From an uncultured Faecalibacterium sp. (GTDB lineage: Bacteria; Bacillota; Clostridia; Oscillospirales; Ruminococcaceae): a stretch of DNA of 27,715 nt. The notes beneath the pieces were generated by a model. That model saw only the letters and a list, made by a program, of their open reading frames with translations, was not told the origin of the DNA and did no database searches. The stretch lies in the NCBI GenBank assembly GCA_934525735.1, contig CAKSZM010000015.1:1-27715 (forward strand). The letters run 5' to 3'. Below, piece by piece: positions 19,376 through 19,744 of this stretch. Position 1 is the first letter of the stretch, and the number at the start of each line of letters is the position of its first letter. Both the position numbers and the translations under genes were made by a program.

Positions 19376-19404
19376 TTGACAAACTGGGTAAAAGAGAATA
19401 TAAT
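19376..19404 (+). promoter_or_regulatory. Consensus promoter of the metY leader transcript
   Basis: TTGACA (19376-19381), a 17-base spacer and TATAAT (19399-19404) match the sigma-A consensus exactly. Transcription would begin near 19411, giving a leader of about 330 bases before metY. A stem ACAAGCC/GGCTTGT (19420-19426/19454-19460) opens the leader. The stretch 19168-19375 upstream holds no gene. Confidence 0.9.
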
Positions 19405-19501
19405 GCAGACAACAAATCCACAAGCCTTGTAGGAAAATGAAAACAAGGTTTCCGGCTTGTAGATGAGTGGGAAAGAAACTGTTTGAAAGGAGGGCACTGA
19501 A

Positions 19502-19633
19502 ATGAAGCTGATTTGGAATGACCTGCTGCATTCAAACTTCCGCTGTGGGCGAATGTGCGGTGACCGGGCAGAACATCTGGCTGTGAACTGTACGATGCCC
19601 TCTTGTTGTGCACGAATGTGTACCCGAATGTGA
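19502..19633 (+). CDS. Cys/Met-rich leader peptide of metY (43 aa)
   Basis: A 43-codon ORF begins at ATG 19502 with AAAGGAGGG a few bases upstream, well inside the metY leader. It encodes six cysteines (positions 15, 19, 30, 35, 36, 40) and four internal or terminal methionines (18, 32, 39, 43). They concentrate in the last third (NCTMPSCCARMCTRM). A terminator lies about 30 bases after its stop codon, then metY. This is the architecture of a ribosome-mediated attenuation leader sensing charged tRNA-Cys or tRNA-Met. It was recognised from composition and position. No homolog was looked up, and a structural peptide is possible but less likely. Confidence 0.75.
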   Translation: MKLIWNDLLHSNFRCGRMCGDRAEHLAVNCTMPSCCARMCTRM

Positions 19634-19663
19634 CATCGACAGCAAAATGCTGATTTGTATTTG

Positions 19664-19698
19664 CCCGGTGCGTTCTGTATCACGCATCGGGAATTTTT
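19664..19698 (+). terminator. Attenuator terminator in the metY leader
   Basis: CCCGGTGCG (19664-19672) pairs with CGCATCGGG (19683-19691), nine pairs with one G-T wobble, followed by AATTTTT. Its 5' arm (TGCCCGGT, 19662-19669) is also perfectly complementary to ACCGGGCA at 19563-19570 in the leader ORF, a possible antiterminator. Confidence 0.75.
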
Positions 19699-19744
19699 GT
19701 ATCAGACAATTATACAAAAAGTTGAAATAGAGAGGTAAAATACT

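Follow-up and report, generated by a model that had tools for sequence, protein, structure and literature searches.

Sulfur amino acid genes in the Firmicutes are usually credited to S-box or T-box RNAs or to protein regulators. Arrest peptides with a role in the control of metabolic genes include the tryptophan-responsive TnaC and the MTO1 region of plant CGS1. In the Actinobacteria, short reading frames with Cys codons lie before sulfur genes, as described for Mycobacterium cys operons and Bifidobacterium cbs in the available text of PMC1262725. Leader-peptide attenuators also occur in the Firmicutes, where His leader peptides precede hisS in bacilli; the authors of that report state that they were aware of no earlier leader-peptide system outside the Proteobacteria and Actinobacteria, ermC apart (PMC2965389).

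Here we describe a leader upstream of metY in an uncultured Faecalibacterium sp. The window is the whole 27,715-nt stretch of contig CAKSZM010000015.1 that was analyzed.

The metY leader in Faecalibacterium

The initial annotation of the window described a perfect sigma-A promoter, a Cys- and Met-containing reading frame with a good Shine-Dalgarno sequence, and a terminator hairpin with a U tract followed by metY. All of these observations were confirmed (Table 1). In the alignment of upstream regions, several Faecalibacterium relatives likewise have a sigma-A type promoter. The leader reading frame contains six Cys codons (15, 19, 30, 35, 36, and 40), four of which lie within codons 30-43, and four Met codons after the start (18, 32, 39, and 43). 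Proteins near-identical to the leader peptide are found in the databases, one of them annotated as hypothetical protein [Faecalibacterium] and the others without a name. The product of the downstream gene scored 630.9 against TIGR01326 (cut-off 495.1) and, among the matches listed, is 98% identical to MetY of Faecalibacterium sp. I4-3-84 (locus L001).

Table 1. Elements of the metY leader locus, with positions in the window
Feature	Position	Strand	Basis
Sigma-A type promoter, TTGACA-N17-TATAAT	19376-19404	+	12/12 consensus matches
AGGAGG, Shine-Dalgarno sequence of leader ORF	19488-19493	+	Sequence
Leader ORF, 43 codons	19502-19633	+	ORF list and relatives
Conserved 18-residue core, here MKLIWNDLLHSNFRCGRM (family FxxLLRxNFRxGRM)	19502-19555	+	Met is residue 18 in 64/74 type-1 leaders
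Cys15 codon TGT	19544-19546	+	13/14 Faecalibacterium-type leaders
Arg17-Met18, CGA-ATG, proposed main stall site	19550-19555	+	14/14 Faecalibacterium-type leaders
Cys19 codon TGC	19556-19558	+	Cys in 4/14 Faecalibacterium-type leaders
A5, ACCGGGCA, antiterminator 5' arm	19563-19570	+	Complementarity, window and family
Cys30 codon TGT, possible second stall site	19589-19591	+	14/14 Faecalibacterium-type leaders; folding
Met32 codon, possible second stall site	19595-19597	+	Folding; Met at this column in 5/14 Faecalibacterium-type leaders
A3, TGCCC, potential anti-antiterminator through pairing with GGGCA of A5	19596-19600	+	CCC of Pro33 in 14/14 Faecalibacterium-type leaders
Second CGA-ATG pair, Arg38-Met39	19613-19618	+	14/14 Faecalibacterium-type leaders
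T5, TGCCCGGT, partner of A5 and terminator 5' arm	19662-19669	+	Complementarity
Intrinsic terminator, stem 19664-19691 and U tract (AATTTTT tail)	19664-19698	+	Sequence
GAGAGG, metY Shine-Dalgarno sequence	19730-19735	+	Sequence
metY, O-acetylhomoserine sulfhydrylase, 429 aa	19745-21034	+	TIGR01326

The complementarity claimed between A5 and the 5' arm of the terminator is exact. The alternative helix between GGGCA of A5 and TGCCC is possible, and the invariant CCC of Pro33 is compatible with it. As a whole, the 295-nt leader is more stable than shuffled sequences (z = -2.84), with 1 of 200 shuffles equally good. A second hairpin, CAGCAAAATGCTG, which resembles a terminator but is weaker, lies just 5' of T5 (19640-19652) and has a T-rich tail.

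The 429 residues of MetY in the window include neither Cys nor any internal Met. Among 108 MetY orthologues from loci with and without a leader, the median was 0 for both residues, and 90 lacked Cys. Such a Cys-free protein would suit an enzyme made in sulfur starvation. At one locus (L055, 2501-4370), the metY match spans 1870 bases, compared with about 1280 usually, as if interrupted by an insertion.

We favor, with a probability of roughly 0.6, transcription attenuation mediated by the ribosome, in which too little charged tRNA for Cys and/or Met is the signal. On shortage of either amino acid the ribosome would wait at Cys15, Met18, and Cys19, around the Arg17-Met18 pair, and in the window there would be a second waiting region around Cys30-Met32. 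The waiting ribosome would leave ACCGGGCA open to pair with TGCCCGGT as the latter emerges, and the terminator would thereby be pre-empted and metY transcribed. When reading is fast, the ribosome would cover ACCGGGCA and run on to the stop codon; with ACCGGGCA covered, or caught by TGCCC, the terminator would form. The CGA codon and the conserved nascent chain perhaps sharpen the wait at Met18, and Cys30 and Met32 are likely to act as helpers within the genus Faecalibacterium. We infer the signal and the direction of the response, and the favored ribosome positions are computed ones that depend on the footprint assumed.

A family of leaders with a conserved Arg-Met pair

Upstream regions of metY were taken from at least 80 named loci and 30 further loci, and small reading frames with a shared motif were found in them. 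Pattern matching against 391 genomes of the window's class supplied additional loci, as did other searches. From 118 candidates, 20 without a start codon or a sulfur gene were dropped, and 98 were kept. The resulting 97 distinct peptides are mostly from Clostridia, with others from Treponema and from one Bacilli genome, as judged by record titles. Many of the bacteria concerned live in the gut or the rumen. Type 1 (n = 74) has the sequence FxxLLRxNFRxGRM followed by a variable tail. Type 2 (n = 23) has a variable N terminus followed mostly by M-C-C-R-M-x-x-S-R-A, and its members were found partly through CGAATG and CCGG themselves.

The strict leader motif is present at 46 of 108 distinct metY loci. 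By eye, a looser form, in some cases weak, was recognized at 15 more; examples are x-R-M-C with CGA-ATG and, in loci titled Treponema, NFRNG[VL]M. Locus L013, for example, has the looser form and lacks the strict motif. No leader was seen by eye in the remaining 47 loci (e.g. L007, L017, and L030). Besides the start genome, 30 pattern-search places with GGNCGAATG were followed, of which 25 were before metY, 2 before NlpA/MetQ-type lipoproteins (PF03180), and 3 unrelated. Type-2 leaders precede metY in 13 of 23 cases, MetQ-type lipoproteins in 4 (one identified by Pfam and three judged by eye), and an amino-acid ABC permease in 3 (the one scanned was above the TIGR01726 cut-off). Single type-2 leaders precede an ABC substrate-binding-like protein that is below all cut-offs shown, a PLP enzyme of the cystathionine gamma-synthase/lyase group that is below the cut-offs shown, and a cysteine-synthase-like fragment (PF00291). 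At locus L256, the reading frame after the leader encodes only the C-terminal part of a cysteine-synthase-like protein.

Outside the Clostridia, the pattern CGAATG-N6-TCCCGG matched 76 of 200 genomes of Atopobacter's class, and none of the 25 places examined there (20 plus five) was kept as a leader; the two Atopobacter leaders (L047 and L185) came from other searches. In the phylum of Treponema zioleckii, NFRxGRM matched 8 of 120 genomes at 10 places, among which the only known leader was that of the start genome. The other leaders titled Treponema came from the MetY match listing.

The scan motif itself fixed Phe/Tyr13, Arg/Lys14, Gly16, Arg17, and Met18. Outside this motif, in the 36 type-1 leaders found via MetY (window included), Asn12 is present in all 36, Arg10 in 31, Leu8 in 30, and Phe5 in 27. 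Within the same set, Arg10 is encoded by six codons (AGA 10, CGC 8, CGG 6, AGG 3, CGT 2, and CGA 2), Arg14 by five (CGC 12, CGT 12, AGG 6, AGA 3, and CGA 3), and Gly16 by all four Gly codons. Because codons vary freely under a conserved peptide, selection appears to act on the amino acids and not on the RNA alone. Conserved nascent-chain residues independent of codon choice are thus present, in the main type (type 1) only. This conservation in relatives supports the proposal in the initial annotation that the leader is translated.

The codon choice at Arg17 is different in kind, with CGA in 32 of the 36 leaders; in the metY genes that follow, 31 of the 1085 codons for Arg are CGA. With the defining site left out, Met or Cys follows CGA in 42 of 58 cases and other Arg codons in 36 of 291. 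The 14 Faecalibacterium-type leaders contribute 24 of the 42, and related species count repeatedly. In type 2 alone the corresponding values are 10 of 14 and 5 of 79. CGA was read slowly in a bacterial his-leader assay, according to the available text of PMC4046918.

Cysteine is the commonest residue after Met18. Among the 23 type-2 leaders, Cys occupies position -9 in 19 and position -6 in 17, and every terminator-type leader (n = 40) has at least one Cys. Some short leaders carry Cys near their stop codon, and six type-2 reading frames (L077, L248, L249, L250, L252, and L254) end CGA-TGT-TGA (Arg-Cys-stop). In four type-2 leaders (L250, L252, L051, and L059), the leader Shine-Dalgarno sequence (e.g. 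GGAGGCG) is complementary by eye to a CGCCT late in the reading frame; pairing of the two could silence the leader once a first ribosome has translated it.

The initial interpretation, in which Cys and Met codons clustered at codons 30-43 exert control, is partly supported by these comparisons. Sulfur codons do lie at the control site, but the conserved site is codons 15-19. A leader reading frame was found in relatives, but it is not always Cys-rich: 12 of the 97 leaders lack Cys, and Cys is therefore not the signal in every member. Eleven of these 12 stop exactly after GRM. One further type-1 leader ends in this way, L178, whose only Cys is in an N-terminal extension that is itself doubtful.

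One Met codon on its own makes a weak sensor of the classical kind. Neither the conserved nascent chain nor the fixed length is required by the tRNA-scarcity account. A tentative reading, less likely than not, is that the leader is a nascent-chain-assisted sensor, in which the 18-residue peptide and a slow CGA codon in the P site make entry of Met- or Cys-tRNA limiting, so that one Met or Cys codon would be enough. Such a cassette would act through a terminator in some lineages; in others it may act on the ribosome-binding site of the gene.

The main rival to attenuation is a metabolite-sensing arrest peptide, which we consider rather doubtful. In this account a free metabolite, whether methionine, S-adenosylmethionine, cysteine, or another, would cause FxxLLRxNFRxGRM to stall the ribosome at Arg17-Met18, much as tryptophan does with TnaC, and the Cys codons would be secondary. 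This proposal would account for Phe5, Leu8, Arg10, and Asn12 being conserved with free synonymous change, for the shared length to Met18 in 64 of 74 type-1 leaders, for the 11 Cys-free leaders that end exactly GRM-stop, and for Cys following Met18 in only 15 of 36 leaders. It fits poorly with type 2, in which CGA-ATG is retained while the N terminus is variable and MMCCRM-like residues replace NFRxG, and with divergent metY leaders that end x-R-M-C without NFRxG.

Alternative pairings and ribosome position

ACCGGGCA and TGCCCGGT have counterparts in relatives. The search for A5 was limited to +6 to +20, counted from the A of the conserved ATG, so the position found for A5 (6-11) arises partly by construction. 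An exact complement of at least 8 nt is present downstream of this segment in 33 of 45 long leaders, compared with 0.61 expected from shuffles. In 40 of the 45, a match of at least 6 nt lies 80-142 nt further on and is followed by a T tract, marking the terminator 5' arm; L036, L067, L084, L115, and L122 lack this arrangement. Three of the 14 Faecalibacterium-type leaders have no exact A5/T5/T-tract match.

Double changes that preserve pairing are present at three positions. The first is C-G in 29 leaders and A-T in 8, with three other states; the 8 A-T leaders are all Faecalibacterium-type and probably represent one event. The second is G-C in 32, A-T in 4 (L005, L015, L019, and Atopobacter L185), and G-T in 4. 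The third is A-T in 31 and T-A in 3, with a few mismatches. In Atopobacter L185, for example, CTCCCGGACA pairs with TGTCCGGGAG. Given these complements, terminator arms, and compensatory changes, the choice between antiterminator and terminator proposed in the initial annotation is real at the family level.

The effect of ribosome position was computed by folding with a ribosome mask. In scan (a), the whole leader was folded with a mask from P-14 to P+15 in 40 scored leaders. With the P site at -3 to +27 the terminator is nearly certain, and a ribosome at Met18 favors the terminator. In type 2, the antiterminator reaches 0.73 and 0.70 with the P site at -12 and -9, respectively, placing the Cys codons at -9 and -6 in the A site; values of 0.62-0.73 are also obtained elsewhere upstream, and of 0.70-0.76 at +39 to +45. 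A stop codon in the A site gives a mean of 0.27 for the antiterminator versus 0.74 for the terminator (38 leaders, all types). Grouped by A-site residue, the antiterminator averages 0.47 for Cys and 0.29 for Met, with higher values for Gln (0.59), Val (0.55), and Phe (0.51). For the window, the terminator prevails almost throughout: the antiterminator peaks at 0.56, with Met32 in the A site, and does not form at Met18, Cys30, Cys35, or Cys36. Because the mask extending to +15 favors the terminator with a ribosome at Met18, we considered a repressing stall at Arg17-Met18, with the ribosome covering A5, and judge it less likely than the attenuator set out above.

Scan (b) used nascent RNA ending just past T5 and a mask from P-12 to P+10, again in 40 leaders. 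This shorter mask was adopted after the result of scan (a) was known, because RNA stems, such as those of frameshift signals, can form about 5 nt behind the codon in the A site. When the A site holds the conserved Met, the antiterminator is at least 0.5 in 40 of 40 leaders; two codons later, this is so in 2 of 40. At the stop codon, 28 of 40 leaders still reach 0.5 (mean 0.71). Without a ribosome the mean is 0.83, being 0.44 for the Faecalibacterium type and 0.97 for type 2. Because the antiterminator is the default fold without a ribosome (0.97) outside the Faecalibacterium type, the off state there is unexplained by the nascent-RNA fold. In the window, the antiterminator value is 0.04 without a ribosome, 0.99 with Met18 in the A site, 0.87 with Cys19, 0.11 with Cys30, 0.97 with Met32, 0.46 with Cys35, and 0.00 with the stop codon.

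The 3' edge of the mask was varied from +9 to +15 for the window and 11 of the 14 Faecalibacterium-type leaders. In the window, the value with Met18 in the A site is 0.99 up to an edge of +12, 0.86 at +13, and 0.25 at +15; with Cys15 in the A site the antiterminator requires an edge of +14. Met32 gives 0.97-0.98 at all edges. Cys30 gives 0.94-0.96 at edges of at least +11 and 0.02-0.11 at shorter ones. A specific on-position near Met18 is thus predicted clearly only for the Faecalibacterium type. The energy model favors the design in general terms without singling out an exact codon.

The exact scheme of the initial annotation, a Cys-only attenuator read at Cys30, Cys35, and Cys36, is improbable on this evidence. 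The part of it that fares best is Cys30, encoded by TGT in every Faecalibacterium-type leader and responsive to the mask in the window, and Cys35 gives intermediate values there (0.45-0.84). Cys36 gives at most 0.01 at every edge, as does the stop codon (0.00), and Cys35 and Cys36 occur together in 5 of 14 relatives. Across the 11 genus members, moreover, Cys30 gives 0.41-0.47 at edges of at least +11, no better than no ribosome (0.44), and outside the genus no Cys is fixed at this place in the leader alignments. Sensing of Cys alone at codons 30-43 is further weakened by the Cys-free leaders.

In 51 leaders without CCGG behind the Met codon, metY or metQ starts 2-155 nt past the stop codon, mostly 40-80 nt. 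The Shine-Dalgarno sequence of metY is less often unpaired in these short leaders than with shuffled upstream sequence (0.324 versus 0.438; n = 46, P = 0.002). With a ribosome at the Met codon, 12 of 46 sites are more open by 0.1 and 4 less, with no clear peak; the profile with the larger mask is slightly suggestive of Shine-Dalgarno release (n = 51).

Comparison with known regulatory leaders

The window leader was compared with described RNA and protein families. No Rfam family reaches its gathering score there, which speaks against a known small-molecule riboswitch, and the S-box and T-box covariance models gave no match. A 461-nt stretch gave three Rfam matches up to E = 5, all far below gathering scores. 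The leaders of 20 further leader loci likewise had no riboswitch match; elsewhere in these loci, L049 contains a tRNA, and L002 has a c-di-GMP-I riboswitch that lies downstream of metY. In 20 metY loci that lack the strict motif, an S-box or T-box might have taken the place of the leader; the one match was a purine riboswitch on the other strand of L032. Pfam gave no family for the window leader and NCBIfam none for seven leaders. A literature search covering titles and abstract openings, with few subscription journals and no bioRxiv, found no description of this leader. A riboswitch or protein-binding leader RNA whose translation is incidental would explain why CGA-ATG is nearly fixed at the nucleotide level in type 1, but it is very improbable given the Rfam results, the synonymous variation at Arg10, Arg14, and Gly16, which points to selection on the peptide, and the explanation of CCGG by pairing with the terminator arm.

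The leader resembles S-box and T-box systems in its probable use of transcription attenuation before met and cys genes, and differs from them in that no Rfam match was found in the window, the 20 other leader loci, or the 20 metY loci without the strict motif. It probably represents a leader-peptide system for sulfur genes in Clostridia and, by record titles, Treponema, without an Rfam match in 21 loci or an NCBIfam match in seven leaders. With the hisS leaders of bacilli it shares leader-peptide attenuation in the Firmicutes; the amino acid differs, being His in those leaders according to the available text of PMC2965389.

In the Actinobacterial leaders, too, a short Cys-containing reading frame precedes sulfur amino acid genes. 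In the available text of PMC1262725, these have Cys runs near the stop codon and, in Mycobacterium, no conserved terminator hairpin. Here, in contrast, an intrinsic terminator and an antiterminator accompany a different peptide. A Cys run near the stop codon of the Actinobacterial kind was not found as a family feature, Cys35-36 of the window being present in 5 of 14 relatives and type 2 having Cys at -9 and -6.

As with TnaC and the MTO1 region of CGS1, a conserved nascent chain would here take part in the control of a metabolic gene, any arrest by it being putative. The conserved core with free synonymous change should allow the contributions of nascent chain, P-site codon, and tRNA charging to be told apart in commensals such as Faecalibacterium.

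With the trp- and his-type attenuators, the leader has in common a reading frame with its own Shine-Dalgarno sequence, control codons, and a mutually exclusive antiterminator and terminator. It differs from them in having one conserved Met codon behind a near-fixed CGA codon instead of a run, in combining Cys and Met codons, in its conserved 18-residue peptide (main type), and in its Clostridia host. We regard it as a new variant among the known leader-peptide attenuators.
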